Position numbers and translations under genes: made by a program. A stretch of DNA of 42,984 nucleotides from a virus: IMG/VR virus record IMGVR_UViG_3300021197_000233, positions 1 to 42,984 of that record. One strand, given 5' to 3'. Position 1 is the stretch's first letter, and each line of letters starts with the position of its first letter. The notes below the pieces were generated by a model. It was given only the letters and a program-made list of their open reading frames with translations, searched no databases and was not told the DNA's origin. Below, one piece after another: positions 4,383 through 29,133 of this stretch.

Positions 4383-5162
4383 ATGAAACAACTTTATAAC
4401 CCTGAAGTTATAGAAAATATGAGGGCATCTCGTAGGCTTGCTGGAAAACAAAGCAGTAAGGCAACGCAACGTAGAAAAGGGTTTTTTAGCCCTGCAGAAA
4501 CTCGTGTTGCAACTAAAGAAAATATGTCTAACATATTAAATCAACGTACTGAAACACCAGATAAAATAGTAAACAACTGGTTGGAAAGTTTAGACTCCGC
4601 AAGAGAAGAAGCAATACAAAACATAGGCACAGGTAAAAAAGAACTGGGTGAACTTAAACCTAGATCAAGAGATGAGGGTGGATTAGATCCAAGCCTAGAT
4701 GAGCAAGCTCAAAAATTATTTGAGGATTCTACGTTTAAAGAAAACTTTGAATCTATTTTACAGGAATATCCAAATGTAAGTAGGTATGAGTTGCTTAGGA
4801 TTATAGATGGTGAATCTAACTTTGATCCAAAGGCTAGAAATAAAGATACAAATGCATCTGGTCTTTTTCAGTTTATACCAAAGGTTGCTGCTGAATTAGG
4901 ATTTACACCAGAAGAAATTAGAAATATGCCACCATCTTCACAGTTATTAGTATATAAAAAGTATTTAAAAAAGTGGAAGTATGATGGTACTTATAGCTTA
5001 GGATTACTTCAAGCTGCACCTGCAAAAAGAAATGCTTCTCCTAATACAATTATTTATAAAAAAGGTTCAGACGCTTGGAATAAAAATCCGGGTTGGAGAG
5101 ATAAAGAGACTGGTAATATAACTAAAGCAAGTATTGATGCGTACTACAGGAGAAATATGTAA
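4383..5162 (+). CDS. Virion-associated lytic transglycosylase (SLT domain)
   Basis: This 259-aa protein carries a lytic-transglycosylase (goose-lysozyme-like SLT) domain in its C-terminal half. The signature is ELLRIIDGESNFDPKA, with the presumed catalytic Glu at about residue 144, then ASGLFQFIP, which matches the family's GLFQ motif. The N-terminal 110 residues are charged and probably link it to the particle. It would cut peptidoglycan locally during genome entry and is distinct from the lysis enzyme at 29681. It lies among internal virion genes, overlaps the next gene by 1 nt (TAATG), and its SD is GGAG before ATG 4383. Confidence 0.85.
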   Translation: MKQLYNPEVIENMRASRRLAGKQSSKATQRRKGFFSPAETRVATKENMSNILNQRTETPDKIVNNWLESLDSAREEAIQNIGTGKKELGELKPRSRDEGGLDPSLDEQAQKLFEDSTFKENFESILQEYPNVSRYELLRIIDGESNFDPKARNKDTNASGLFQFIPKVAAELGFTPEEIRNMPPSSQLLVYKKYLKKWKYDGTYSLGLLQAAPAKRNASPNTIIYKKGSDAWNKNPGWRDKETGNITKASIDAYYRRNM

Positions 5163-23833: not shown

Positions 23834-23847
23834 TTTAGTTCCTTTCC

Positions 23848-25870: not shown

Positions 25871-26267
25871 ACAATTTGATGCCTAAAACTAGCTCTCGTG
25901 ATAGCTCGTGCCATCCAGTAGGCATACATAGGTACGCCTTGTTCTGCTGCAAGTGTACAATTATATTACCTACAGATAGGCTAGTGTCACCCTTAGCAAG
26001 GGTAGTAACCTTAGCTTTACCATATCCATTTCCTGCTTCAAAGACAGCCTCTAATGGGTCAACAGATTCAGATAGCACACCTAGATGCAGGAACTTGGTT
26101 GGGTAATACATGTTATGAAACAAAGCATCATTGACACTCTGTTCTGCAGACTTCTCATTGAGAAGCCTCAGATCAAAAGCAATCCTTGCTATCTCTGACT
26201 GAGGGTTCTCATTGATTATGTCATAGACTTCTGGTCTGAACTGATAGACGAGGTATGATCTGGACAT
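25869..26267 (-). CDS. Early-region protein, unknown
   Basis: A 132-aa protein (MSRSYLVYQFRPEVYDIINE...) with a helical first half and a beta-rich second half (AKVTTLAKGDTSLSVGNIIV). A good SD (AAGGAG) precedes the ATG. It is the only gene in this stretch with a 141-bp gap upstream. No family recognised. Confidence 0.55.
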   Translation of the reverse strand: MSRSYLVYQFRPEVYDIINENPQSEIARIAFDLRLLNEKSAEQSVNDALFHNMYYPTKFLHLGVLSESVDPLEAVFEAGNGYGKAKVTTLAKGDTSLSVGNIIVHLQQNKAYLCMPTGWHELSRELVLGIKL

Positions 26268-26408
26268 TGGCTTAACTCCTTGTTGCCATGAATTTCCTTA
26301 GTTCTGTCACATGATGAAACAGATGTCAAGGCTTTTATTTTGAATAGCATTTGTCGATGCCATATAGACCGCCAATATTTGTCGGCACGTAGTGATTGCC
26401 TGTCACGT
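26268..26408. other. 141-bp non-coding gap in the early operon
   Basis: A minus-strand TTGACA (26329-26324) lies 57 bp before the downstream start, but no good -10 follows at 16-18 bp (ACAGAA at best). A five-codon reading frame with its own AAGGA precedes the gene. The sequence could hold an internal promoter or a leader. The support is weak. Confidence 0.3.
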
Positions 26409-26648
26409 TTACTCCTCATCCTCATCTCCACACATGTCATTCCATTCTTCAGGGCTGATACCTGTCTTAATAAACTCACGTTGCTCGGCATCTAAGTCAG
26501 GCATTACATTCTGAATCAGTTCACCTGATTGTAGCCAGTATTCTATCTTACCTTGAGTCGTAGGTAAAACCATAGAGTTTACCTTACCTGAAAGCATAGA
26601 CTTCTTGTGAACAAATACTTTGTTCTCTGCAATGTGTTCTATCCGCAT
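26409..26648 (-). CDS. Small acidic conserved phage protein
   Basis: This 79-aa protein has LSGKVNSMVLPTTQGKIEYW, then GELIQNVMPDLDAEQREFIKTGISPEEW, and an acidic tail (CGDEDEE). The 'IQ...P.L..EQREFi.tGi.peEW' pattern recurs in phage early genes of unknown function. SD AAGGAG, 6 nt before ATG 26648. Palindrome copy 4 is 16 bp upstream. Confidence 0.65.
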   Translation of the reverse strand: MRIEHIAENKVFVHKKSMLSGKVNSMVLPTTQGKIEYWLQSGELIQNVMPDLDAEQREFIKTGISPEEWNDMCGDEDEE

Positions 26649-26794
26649 GTCATTCTCCTTTTCATTCTCGGATTTTCCGTGATTAGTTTTGCATTACTAG
26701 GGAAACGTTTAAGTATCTTCGATACTTGCCGCATGTCACGACAAGTAAGATAAGAAAACATAAACCCTTCATCATCATAAAAACATACCCGCAT
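26639..26794 (-). CDS. 51-aa early peptide, unknown
   Basis: The ORF begins MRVCFYDDEGFMFSYLTCRD and is followed by a basic helix (RQVSKILKRFP). The start lies two bases after the stop of the membrane peptide upstream, with GGGGG as a possible SD. Its last third reads through palindrome copy 4 (LITENPR). It overlaps the next gene by 10 nt. It may be a genuine small protein or an accidental frame. Confidence 0.4.
   Translation of the reverse strand: MRVCFYDDEGFMFSYLTCRDMRQVSKILKRFPSNAKLITENPRMKRRMTCG
26664..26684. promoter_or_regulatory. Repeated 21-bp palindrome, copy 4
   Basis: The core is CGGATTTTCCG, one base off consensus, with the same flanks as copy 1. It lies 16 bp upstream of the 79-aa gene and inside the 3' end of the short 51-aa frame. 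Confidence 0.7.
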
Positions 26795-26796
26795 GA

Positions 26797-26952
26797 TCAC
26801 CCCCGATCAAAAGCTAAAACAGAAAGTAATATTACTACAGGTAGTAATGATAATAATATTATAGGATTAATAGTAGTATAAGCTACTATTAATAATATAC
26901 TTGTAGTAGATATAAGTATTAATAACCAAGCAAAGAATATTACTAATTGCAT
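26797..26952 (-). CDS. 51-aa membrane protein
   Basis: The ORF begins MQLVIFFAWLLILISTTSIL and contains two hydrophobic helices separated by a short YTTINP turn, then a charged end (FDRG). The SD AAGGAG lies about 9 nt before ATG 26952. The coding sequence includes an 8-bp and an 11-bp inverted repeat of the hairpin array. A membrane-targeting early peptide such as an inner-membrane or superinfection-exclusion factor is conceivable, but nothing identifies it. Confidence 0.5.
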   Translation of the reverse strand: MQLVIFFAWLLILISTTSILLIVAYTTINPIILLSLLPVVILLSVLAFDRG

Positions 26953-26987
26953 GACGTGATCTCCTTCTGCCGCATGCTTACAAAAGT

Positions 26988-27008
26988 ATTCTCGGAATTT
27001 CCGTGAAT
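26988..27008. promoter_or_regulatory. Repeated 21-bp palindrome, copy 5 (most symmetric)
   Basis: The core is CGGAATTTCCG. Here the symmetry extends outwards, with GTATTC on the left (26986-26991) and GAATAC on the right (27005-27010), giving a 25-bp near-perfect palindrome with two mismatched positions plus the centre. It is 36 bp upstream of the membrane peptide gene. Confidence 0.75.
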
Positions 27009-27035
27009 ACCACTATACTTCAAAGAAGTATAAGC

Positions 27036-27062
27036 AAAAAAAAAGCTCCCCGAAGGGAGCTT
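27036..27062 (-). terminator. Intrinsic terminator with UUCG loop
   Basis: On the minus strand the stem AAGCTCCC / GGGAGCTT (8 bp) closes a UUCG tetraloop and runs directly into nine T residues (27044-27036). It follows the 54-aa gene stop by 3 bp. This is the clearest Rho-independent terminator in the window. It should cut transcription from the outermost early genes before the membrane peptide. Confidence 0.9.
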
Positions 27063-27065
27063 CCT

Positions 27066-27230
27066 TTAAATATATCCGACTGCTATTAAGCAGTCTATAA
27101 AACCTTTTAGTCTAGATGGGTCATCGACTTTCAGTCGATTATTCATTTTATCGTTTAATGGTTTACCATTAACAGAAAAAATAACTGAATTGTCTTCGAC
27201 AAGTTCACATTCTACACCACGATATTTCAT
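27066..27230 (-). CDS. 54-aa early protein, unknown
   Basis: The ORF begins MKYRGVECELVEDNSVIFSV and ends in a hydrophobic helix (FIDCLIAVGYI). It is bracketed by palindrome copy 6 and the terminator at 27036, so it is a self-contained transcription unit. The SD GGAG sits in and beside the loop of an 8-bp hairpin (27233-27251). Three further hairpins lie inside the coding sequence. No family recognised. Confidence 0.6.
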   Translation of the reverse strand: MKYRGVECELVEDNSVIFSVNGKPLNDKMNNRLKVDDPSRLKGFIDCLIAVGYI

Positions 27231-27232
27231 AT

Positions 27233-27251
27233 TTTAAATCTCCGATTTAAA
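27233..27251 (-). promoter_or_regulatory. Hairpin around ribosome-binding site
   Basis: TTTAAATC-GGA-GATTTAAA on the minus strand places the SD GGAG partly in the loop and partly in the stem, just before ATG 27230. It could tune or gate translation of the 54-aa protein. Confidence 0.5.
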
Positions 27252-27254
27252 GTT

Positions 27255-27275
27255 ATTCACGGAATTTCCGAGATT
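27255..27275. promoter_or_regulatory. Repeated 21-bp palindrome, copy 6 (inverted orientation)
   Basis: The core is CGGAATTTCCG. The flanks are swapped relative to copies 1-5 (ATTCA on the left, AGATT on the right), so the site is used in either orientation. That supports a symmetric protein-binding site over a directional promoter. Confidence 0.75.
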
Positions 27276-27278
27276 GAA

Positions 27279-27298
27279 TAGCCCCCCGAAGGGGGCTA
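27279..27298 (-). terminator. GC-rich UUCG-loop hairpin after the 213-aa gene
   Basis: TAGCCCCC / GGGGGCTA (8 bp) closes a UUCG loop in the minus-strand transcript, six bases past the stop codon of the 213-aa gene. There is no T-run, so it may slow polymerase or protect the 3' end more than terminate. Confidence 0.55.
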
Positions 27299-27304
27299 AA
27301 TGAT

Positions 27305-27946
27305 TTACTTTTTGTTGGTAAGAGCCATTAGCTCTTTAATGACATCCGACATTTTGAAGCCATTTGCTTCAATACAGTCCATTATTTGGACTGCAAATTC
27401 TTCTTCGTTCTTAGGAACGACTGTTTCGAAAACGGTATTCTTTAGAACCGTTTCTGCTTTGCTAGGCTCTTTAGAGCCTTTTGGTTTACCTTTGCTGGTA
27501 TTACCAGCAGAACCTTGTTTCTTTTCAACCTGCTCTTCAGCAGGTTTTTTCTTTTCTGCGATTTTCTTCTGAATAGAAGAAAGACCCAGTGGATCGCCAT
27601 TCTTCTTGAAAAGCTCTCCGCTTTTCATCATCTCTTGAACCAGCTTCCATTCGGAAGCTATCAGCATCATGTTATACCGATCTGAAAAGTGGATCTTTGC
27701 AAGATCCGTTTGTTTGATCCATTCACCGAATTTCTGCTTGGAATCTCCAAGCATAGACTTCATGGCAAGCAAGTAATTGCCGTTCTCTCTATAGAGAGGA
27801 ATGACGGCATCGGCAAAGTCTTTAGCTAAAGACTTAATGGTGTCGTTGTTAGCAACGACATGATCGATACTGTCCTTGACAGTATATGTTTTCTTGCCGA
27901 TCCGAACTTTGCCGTCCAAGTTTACTTGTGCTACAGAATTTGTCAT
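27305..27946 (-). CDS. First leftward early gene, DUF3102-like, hairpin-laced
   Basis: This 213-aa protein has a helical N-terminal half in which KFGEWIKQTDLAKIHFSDRYNMMLIASEW resembles the KFG-W...S-R-A--Y---A helix-turn-helix-like motif of DUF3102/ParB-associated proteins. A Lys/Glu-rich disordered linker (about residues 120-165) and a short C-terminal helical part (MDCIEANGFKMSDVIKELM) follow. It is the first gene leftward from the control region, so an early regulator or host-takeover protein is plausible. The coding DNA contains about 16 perfect inverted repeats, an extraordinary density. The SD AAGGAG lies in another small hairpin (27952-27966). Confidence 0.6.
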   Translation of the reverse strand: MTNSVAQVNLDGKVRIGKKTYTVKDSIDHVVANNDTIKSLAKDFADAVIPLYRENGNYLLAMKSMLGDSKQKFGEWIKQTDLAKIHFSDRYNMMLIASEWKLVQEMMKSGELFKKNGDPLGLSSIQKKIAEKKKPAEEQVEKKQGSAGNTSKGKPKGSKEPSKAETVLKNTVFETVVPKNEEEFAVQIMDCIEANGFKMSDVIKELMALTNKK

Positions 27947-27951
27947 TTGGT

Positions 27952-27966
27952 ATTCTCCTTGAGAAT
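27952..27966 (-). promoter_or_regulatory. Hairpin overlapping SD of the 213-aa gene
   Basis: On the minus strand ATTCTC-AAG-GAGAAT contains the whole SD AAGGAG, in loop and 3' arm, six bases before the ATG. Folding would limit ribosome access. Confidence 0.55.
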
Positions 27967-28000
27967 TGAGGGTTATGCCGAACCAAATCGATTCGACCCC

Positions 28001-28032
28001 TTTATAAGGACAGATCCCAAACCGATTGTCAA
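28001..28032 (-). promoter_or_regulatory. Weak candidate leftward early promoter
   Basis: A minus-strand TTGACA (28032-28027) is followed by TATAAA (28006-28001) at 20-bp spacing, or TTATAA at 19 bp, which is longer than optimal. It is the only consensus -35 found upstream of the 213-aa gene. Palindrome copy 7 lies about 30 bp further upstream and could bind an activator that compensates for the spacing. Confidence 0.35.
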
Positions 28033-28062
28033 GCCCTAATTAAACCCCTTTAGGGTTTACCC

Positions 28063-28083
28063 ATTCTCGGAATTTCCGAGATT
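28063..28083. promoter_or_regulatory. Repeated 21-bp palindrome, copy 7
   Basis: The core CGGAATTTCCG is flanked by ATTCT and AGATT, so CTCGG is mirrored exactly by CCGAG. It is the outermost copy, 117 bp before the first leftward gene, and the hairpins at 28041 and 28088 lie directly beside it. Confidence 0.75.
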
Positions 28084-28103
28084 GAACTTCCCCTTTAGGG
28101 GAA

Positions 28104-28690
28104 ACTTTTTGATCTTTTGGTGAGCATTATGCGCAAGGAAAAGCTATGCAGGTGATCCCGATCCCAAGCATGATCCCAGATGATTGAACCATATTATGGT
28201 TTGACCATGATCTTGGTCTAAAGACCAAAGCCCTGTAATTCCCAAGAGATTACCTTGTAATCTGATAAAGGGAATCCCTTATTGTTTGTAAAAACAATAC
28301 ATTTCAATGACTTGTCATTGATTCTTGCTGAATCCTACGGATTTATAGGCGTGATCAAGCCCCATCTAGGCTACGGGGGGCATGGGCCATAGGGGGGTAC
28401 GCTGATACTATATACCCATAATGACAGAGGGGGGTATTTTCAGTTGGAAACCACAATAATACCAGCCCATATATAGTATTCCCTAGTAAAAACAAGGGGT
28501 TAAGCCTAATATTGCTACGAAAGGCAAAGGTTATTGTAGAATACTTGGGGGATTACGTGAGGTATGTTGCAATGTTTGTAACAATTTGTGAACATCTGGA
28601 CTTATACTTTATGGTAACTGGACTTATATAGAAATTTAATGGTGGTAAAGAAAAATTAAATTAATTTAAATATTATTTCTTACTTTTAGT
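28104..28690. other. Non-coding divergent control region
   Basis: No convincing gene is present. The left part (to 28343) continues the hairpin array and has three GATCCC copies close together (28154-28176). The middle has three GGGGGG tracts on the plus strand (28375, 28392, 28429) around a GGG, and the inverted repeat ATACTATAT / ATATAGTAT (28405 and 28471). The right part is very AT-rich. This divergent, structured stretch between leftward and rightward operons is the natural place for regulation and possibly a replication origin, but no origin motif is recognised. Confidence 0.5.
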
Positions 28691-28691
28691 G

Positions 28692-28719
28692 TTGACAAAT
28701 AATTAGAGTGCGGTATAAT
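28692..28719 (+). promoter_or_regulatory. Strong rightward sigma70 promoter
   Basis: A perfect TTGACA (28692-28697) and a perfect TATAAT (28714-28719) are separated by 16 bp. It would start transcription near 28726 and drive the lysis, packaging and head genes. The inverted repeat TTAAAGTA / TACTTTAA (28723-28751) covers the expected start site and could be an operator or leader hairpin. Confidence 0.85.
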
Positions 28720-28887
28720 TACTTAAAGTATTACTTAGAGTAGTACTTTAAATATTAAATACTAATTATAATTATAGTAAGTAATTAATATTTAAGGAAA
28801 TCCTTTAAGGATGGTGTGATTTTTTTACTGTCGTAGGTAAAAAGTGTTGACTTCCCTTTTTAAAATCGTATAACTAAGGACAATCAA
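28720..28887 (+). other. AT-rich leader before the rightward operon
   Basis: The leader holds the inverted repeat at 28723-28751 and a pair of short AAGGA / TCCTT stems around 28794-28812, followed by seven T residues at 28820-28826. Together these could act as a weak attenuator. There is no open frame longer than a few codons. Confidence 0.4.
28847..28874 (+). promoter_or_regulatory. Second rightward promoter candidate
   Basis: TTGACT (28847-28852), a 16-bp spacer and TATAAC (28869-28874) repeat the spacing of the promoters at 28692 and 42725. Transcription would begin near 28881, just past the SD AAGGA (28876-28880), so transcripts from here would lack the SD of the first gene. Confidence 0.5.
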
Positions 28888-29133
28888 TTGCCAAAAATGT
28901 ATTCTTCAGATAATGTGCTAGAGGAATTTTACAAAGCCCTAGCCGACGAGGACGAAGGTAGACTCCGAAGAGTCCACATCCCACGTTCAGATGTTTTTTA
29001 CGTGAGGGAAAAAATATTTCAAGACACTGGCACTAAGTATTCTCTAGACAGAGTGGAAAGAGCTATGTACCTAGAAGGATTTCTTAGTGCCAGTGATGTT
29101 TTTCAACCTAGAAAAAAGAGGGAATGGGAATGA
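28888..29133 (+). CDS. First rightward gene, unknown conserved phage protein
   Basis: This 81-aa product starts MPKMYSSDNVLEEFYKALAD and includes HIPRSDVFYVREKIFQDTG and VERAMYLEGFL. I recall similar small proteins ahead of lysis or terminase genes in related phages. The start is TTG 28888 with AAGGA eight bases before. The ATG at 28897 is too far from that SD. A DNA-binding role is possible from the helical, basic middle, but no family is certain. Confidence 0.65.
   Translation: MPKMYSSDNVLEEFYKALADEDEGRLRRVHIPRSDVFYVREKIFQDTGTKYSLDRVERAMYLEGFLSASDVFQPRKKREWE

Follow-up and report, generated by a model that had tools for sequence, protein, structure and literature searches.

Introduction

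Conserved structure that overlaps coding sequence is known from the genome-scale ordered RNA structure of RNA viruses and from structured mRNAs, in which synonymous sites are constrained by pairing and compensatory changes occur. Small hairpins with loops of ~3 nt are also found in the early DNA of phage N4, where they are extruded by supercoiling and serve as promoters of the virion RNA polymerase; these hairpins are few and sequence-specific. In integrase-bearing phages, the phage P4 leader RNA (CI-RNA immunity) and the lambdoid nut/put antitermination RNAs are structured RNAs that open an early operon, each as one or a few specific elements. Additionally, rickettsial palindromic elements place palindromic sequence within protein genes as inserted copies of a single repeat.

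Here we describe an array of ~35 small perfect hairpins that covers the opening gene of the early operon of a marine phage and its surroundings. Like the structures of RNA viruses and mRNAs, the array shows pairing-constrained synonymous sites and compensatory changes, but it lies in a double-stranded DNA phage, occupies one locus only, also fills the noncoding flanks, and has uniformly tiny hairpins whose stems pair strictly by Watson-Crick rules and whose loops never exceed 5 nt. This contrast rests on general background and not on a comparison against those genomes. The array shares small stems, ~3-nt loops and a place in phage early DNA with the N4 promoters, yet its hairpins have no common sequence or flank motif, and the N4-type criterion of a common hairpin sequence with a downstream start motif is not met. 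Unlike the P4 and nut/put RNAs, the array passes through a protein gene, and unlike the rickettsial elements, its hairpins all differ from one another and keep register with homologous codons. A search confined to open-licence literature found nothing relevant on such arrays or on this gene family. We conclude that the array is a coding sequence overlapped by conserved structure, the function of which is unproven.

Results

A gene at the strand switch of an HMO-2011-type phage is filled with hairpins

The window, which is the whole stretch analysed, is a 43-kb virus record that belongs with the HMO-2011-type marine phages: its terminase, portal and replication genes resemble those of this group, and its terminase shares 87% identity with that of Roseobacter phage CRP-13 and 68% with that of Puniceispirillum phage HMO-2011. 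The window also encodes an SU10-type portal, a DNA polymerase A, a DnaB-like helicase with a Toprim domain, a B12-dependent ribonucleotide reductase, a Cas4-type exonuclease and an integrase. The hairpin locus sits at the strand switch, which is the start of the leftward (early) gene block. A perfect-consensus rightward promoter, TTGACA-N16-TATAAT, lies at 28692-28719 within a 78% AT stretch and probably serves the rightward block.

The gene at 27305-27946 (minus strand) encodes a 213-aa protein of no known family and contains 16 perfect hairpins that do not overlap; they recur every 37-40 nt or so, and their stems make up 37% of the gene bases. The hairpins span 27320-27885 on the minus strand, at 27320-27336, 27354-27372, 27375-27393, 27405-27420, 27464-27479, 27493-27509, 27527-27546, 27563-27582, 27607-27627, 27642-27659, 27691-27707, 27735-27753, 27785-27798, 27816-27835, 27841-27860 and 27867-27885. 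All four stems that the original prediction had quoted are present exactly where it placed them, namely TGCTTGGA/TCCAAGCA at 27735-27753, TGTCGTTG/CAACGACA at 27841-27860, AACCTGCT/AGCAGGTT at 27527-27546 and TGAAAAGC/GCTTTTCA at 27607-27627. Synonymous codon shuffles, which keep the same protein and the same codon usage, yield only 1.3 ± 1.1 hairpins against the 16 observed (z 13.6); under a stricter hairpin definition, 14 are observed versus 0.66 ± 0.80 (z 16.7), a number that none of 200 shuffles reaches. None of the other 33 window ORFs tested by synonymous shuffle exceeds a z of 3.0. Minimum free energy z-scores are -10.7 for the sense and -11.2 for the antisense strand, each versus 20 dinucleotide shuffles. 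The stems use all three codon registers (45, 31 and 41), which implies that the amino-acid sequence may have been shaped too, besides the synonymous sites.

The array extends into the noncoding flanks and a second small ORF

The original prediction had confined the hairpins to the gene, and this boundary proved too narrow: the array spans ~26.7 to 28.35 kb and comprises a leader of ~400 nt, the gene, a 54-aa ORF, an intrinsic terminator and some 300 nt beyond. Stems of at least 7 bp number 6, 22 and 10 per kb across 26001-29000, as compared with ~1 per kb elsewhere in the window, and noncoding DNA on both flanks of the gene is also hairpin-filled. The median gap between hairpins is ~16 nt.

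On the leader side (minus strand throughout), the hairpin ATTCTC-aag-GAGAAT at 27952-27966 holds the Shine-Dalgarno (SD) sequence of the gene, and in relatives GGA forms the loop of a stem directly before the ATG, as in TTAATTC-gga-GAATTAA. A putative proximal promoter, TTGACA and TTATAA separated by 19 nt, is recognised at 28002-28032 from an alignment and by consensus reading only; its TTGAC is invariant among relatives and falls in a 74-nt hairpin-free gap. Directly upstream of it, the leader hairpins TAAACCC-taaag-GGGTTTA, TCTCGGAA-a-TTCCGAGA and TTCCCCT-aa-AGGGGAA (28041-28103) show compensatory changes in relatives. A conserved hairpin-free box, CTTTTCCTTGCGCATAATGC, follows at 28124-28143; its degenerate pattern matched 38 viral-contig stretches, and in those with this gene family the box lies ~110-225 nt before the gene start. 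The array ends upstream near the leader hairpins at 28187-28321, which are AACCATA-a-TATGGTT, TTGGTCT-tt-AGACCAA, AGATTAC-aag-GTAATCT, TATTGTTT-ttac-AAACAATA and TCAATGAC-aa-GTCATTGA. Upstream of the array, at window position 28400-28440, the minus-strand block CTGTCATTATGGGTATATA is conserved in relatives.

On the distal side, a UUCG-capped hairpin, TAGCCCCC-ttcg-GGGGGCTA (27279-27298, minus strand), stands immediately 3' of the stop codon of the gene. The 54-aa ORF (27066-27230, minus strand) contains hairpins at 27078-27095, 27123-27139 and 27155-27172, and directly before its ATG the hairpin TTTAAATC-gga-GATTTAAA (27233-27251, minus strand) again presents the SD motif GGA in its loop. The leftward unit ends in an intrinsic terminator at 27038-27067 (minus strand), a GCTCCC-ttcg-GGGAGC stem followed by a T run, and past it the array continues with minus-strand hairpins at 26711-26727, 26831-26848, 26866-26893 and 27014-27032 (26711-27032). 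The small-ORF region at 27106-27214 is strongly divergent among relatives that are otherwise 94-95% identical (L002 and L003; relatives are given L numbers here), as if this segment had been exchanged.

The hairpins follow narrow construction rules

The stems consist of 6-9 pairs, all strictly Watson-Crick. Relative to shuffles, loops of 0-5 nt occur roughly 15- to 80-fold more often, whereas those of 6 nt or more show no enrichment. Up to 8 bp, a stem gains one further pair far more often than expected at random, but beyond that length no more often. The closing pairs, read 5' to 3', are strongly biased, with C-G outnumbering G-C by 113 to 11 and T-A outnumbering A-T by 72 to 29, as opposed to 10 to 8 and 19 to 21, respectively, in chance hairpins elsewhere in the window. 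Stem length falls as GC content rises (rho -0.35), AT-rich stems being longer, and the spread of folding energy is narrower than in random draws, with RNA or DNA parameters alike. The hairpin flanks carry no sequence motif, the information content being at most 0.07 bit per position. Rfam covariance models gave chance-level matches only in 26400-29000 and zero matches in L079, L086, L087, L043 and L066.

The array recurs in lineages whose proteins are barely related

The original prediction had labelled the encoded protein DUF3102-like, and this label found no support: no DUF3102 match appeared even at a maximum E of 5, with the reservation that HMMER filters could mask very weak matches. Neither Pfam, even with a permissive limit, nor PHROG returned a significant family for the 213-aa protein. 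A structure model is usable for parts (mean pLDDT 70, pTM 0.58) and predicts helical domains and a lysine-rich, low-confidence linker; a fold search against the PDB and viral models gave no significant match, and no significant match to a nucleic-acid-binding family or fold was obtained.

Homologs were gathered from IMG/VR through the protein, through a neighbouring gene and through the conserved 20-nt leader box. The gene keeps 14-17 hairpins at 99%, 65-68% and 40-45% protein identity. Other relatives vary in number, with 18 hairpins in the gene of L043, 7-8 in the L040 group and 4-6 in the L059 group, and L051 is weak (3 hairpins, z 2.9). On the other hand, the GC-richer relatives L042 and L047 keep the same gene without a significant hairpin excess in the synonymous shuffle, so the array is a trait of lineages and not a requirement of the protein.

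In HMO-2011 itself, gp74 at the equivalent place contains 8 hairpins (z 10.4), and its surroundings are the densest hairpin part of that genome. HMO-2011 gp74 was not recovered by tblastn with four members of the window gene's family, but profile comparison (hhalign) joins both protein groups with a probability of 96.9%, an E of 1.8e-10 and 16% identity. A hairpin excess is also found in gp01 of CRP-1 (z 8.5) and gp01 of CRP-345 (z 5.1), while no comparable cluster was seen in CRP-13, CRP-6, CRP-603, CRP-212 and HTVC033P, only parts of each of which were examined. No prophage copies were found in bacterial genomes with the query used. HMO-2011 and CRP-1 carry a long imperfect leader hairpin directly before the gene (L079, ~4600-4670; end of L086), and a conserved block common to both, TTTCGnnATCGnAGATnnCTGCAA...GAAACGGCAnGnGCAGAGG, lies upstream of it; no Rfam match was obtained here.

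The ability to fold is under selection

In most close pairs of relatives, third positions are several-fold less diverged in stems than outside. Specifically, the diverged third positions are 2/83 in stems versus 18/130 outside between the window and L003 (p 0.007), 4/81 versus 24/123 between L004 and L011 (p 0.003), and 19/80 versus 55/124 between L008 and L013 (p 0.003). The contrast is borderline for the window with L002 and for L011 with L014 (p ~0.05), and in one of the six pairs tested, L004-L008, third positions do not differ in and out of stems. When noncoding and coding alignments are taken together, three of the six close pairs reach significance and the other three do not.

Over longer distances, 78 distinct internal double changes are found in intact stems and 46 in stems with one mismatch, which are the compensatory changes expected of a functional RNA with conserved structure. 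Single mismatches at internal positions of stems that are intact or nearly so are few, with 4 G-U, 6 A-C and 15 others. The 13 sequences behind these counts are related, and the changes do not represent independent events on a tree. The third-position constraint and the two-sided stem changes together imply selection on the ability to fold. It is very likely, then, that purifying and compensatory selection maintains this ability, rather than the sequence, both within the gene and outside it. The original prediction, that RNA or DNA is selected as well as the protein, is thus supported, as neither outcome named as refuting it came true: the stem excess is large at fixed protein and codon usage, and stems are kept in related genes across the identity range given above.

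An RNA hairpin array is the leading but unproven explanation

The reading that we place ahead of the others is that the array works at the RNA level, as hairpins that shield or insulate the early leftward transcript, although without transcript data the mechanism is unproven and this reading falls a little short of being probable. The folding molecule is inferred to be the leftward transcript. Each hairpin, with its 6-9 pairs and tight loop, would snap shut on leaving RNA polymerase, and the short median gap would leave nascent and finished RNA nearly free of long single-stranded stretches, the conserved box and the proximal promoter being the exceptions. The array may thus shield the first early mRNA from whatever needs access to open RNA: Rho, which could load on the long untranslated leader, R-loops or antisense partners, and single-strand endonucleases. 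Hairpin loops would display the ribosome-binding GGA motifs. RNA is favoured by loops that are A-rich on the transcript strand: coding loops contain 185 A against a phase-matched expectation of 136 (T, 98 versus 92), leader loops of related sequences have an A:T ratio of 100:48 versus 931:947 in linkers (p 2.5e-5), and HMO-2011 alone has 15 A in loops versus 7 expected and 1 T versus 6. The SD motifs in loops and the UUCG caps are likewise in the leftward RNA sense.

Several observations speak against RNA. Unlike in typical conserved RNA helices, G-U is not better tolerated than A-C: the preference expected for leftward RNA is absent among distinct events, both internal (4 versus 6) and at stem ends (13 versus 12), and counted by cells the figures are 15 versus 24, so that this strand test leans slightly away from leftward RNA and conflicts with the loop composition. 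RNA would tolerate loops of 6-8 nt, yet these are unused. The putative proximal promoter has hairpins upstream of it, at -113 to -375, with no upstream leftward promoter identified, the array goes on past the terminator, and the hairpin-free L042 and L047 lineages retain the same gene. The lack of G-U tolerance and the hairpins upstream of the putative promoter leave a DNA-level role at a replication origin open.

In that alternative, which is possible and which we rank below the RNA reading, folding takes place in DNA, either single-stranded or supercoiled, at a replication origin at the strand switch beside the AT-rich stretch, where the hairpins would guide primase or helicase loading or exclude SSB or RecA. 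It is supported by the strict Watson-Crick pairing without G-U preference, by a closing-pair rule and a folding energy that are equal for both strands, by the disregard of the hairpins for gene and putative promoter limits, by a cumulative GC skew minimum at 26-29 kb and by the AT-rich neighbour (78% AT at 28600-28850). No origin has been mapped, GC skew tracks gene direction too and is therefore weak evidence, and the one-strand A enrichment of loops, the SD motifs in loops and the UUCG caps argue against it. A further reading, in which a hairpin-recognising protein, perhaps the gene product itself, binds the array and so autoregulates or coats its own mRNA or DNA, appears unlikely. The array does accompany the protein family across lineages joined only by profile comparison, and the predicted helical domains and lysine-rich linker would suit such a role, but the flanks have no motif, no nucleic-acid-binding match was significant and family members without hairpins exist.

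Still harder to sustain is a mutational origin, in which polymerase template switching at quasi-palindromes repeatedly makes perfect short inverted repeats. Perfect Watson-Crick stems and few single-mismatch intermediates fit this process, yet energy normalised by stem length, biased closing pairs, sharply limited loops and preserved coding do not, and template switching as sole cause is disfavoured by third positions that are more conserved in stems than in linkers in most close pairs. That the array is merely a by-product of codon usage, repeated amino acids or low sequence complexity can be practically dismissed: no point in its favour was found, neither synonymous nor dinucleotide shuffles reproduce the array, and the noncoding flanks show it too.

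With the RNA reading still in the lead, a bolder interpretation leaves the molecule unspecified. It holds that the locus is an undescribed nucleic-acid device, in which sequence-independent tight Watson-Crick hairpins, superimposed on an early gene and the DNA beside it, are kept by shape alone across phages whose protein is barely recognisable, as one unit that may be RNA armour, an origin scaffold or a protein coat; we consider this joint claim slightly less likely than not. At either level, the array is a clear case in which a gene of a double-stranded DNA phage conveys a second message through folding, and its rules are simple and measurable. If the RNA reading is true, it represents a new way of protecting or regulating an early transcript; if the DNA reading is true, it points to the replication origin of the group. 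Because the array is present in the cultured phages HMO-2011, CRP-1 and CRP-345 of an abundant marine group, its function is directly testable by synonymous recoding.

An operator-like palindrome is repeated around the leftward genes

An operator-like palindrome of the CATTCTCGGAATTTCCGTGATTA type occurs in seven copies, mostly between leftward genes, at 23847, 25414, 25849, 26663, 26987, 27254 and 28062. The copy at 27254-27278 reads TTCACGGAATTTCCGAGATTGAA. Relatives have their own repeated versions in similar places (TGTCGGACnGTCCGACA, TGACGGACnGTCCGTCA and TCATGGAnnnTCCATGA), with AGTCCGACAGCGGACT in HMO-2011 and TGTCCAACGTTGGACA in CRP-1, a pattern that suggests coevolution of a regulator and its sites.
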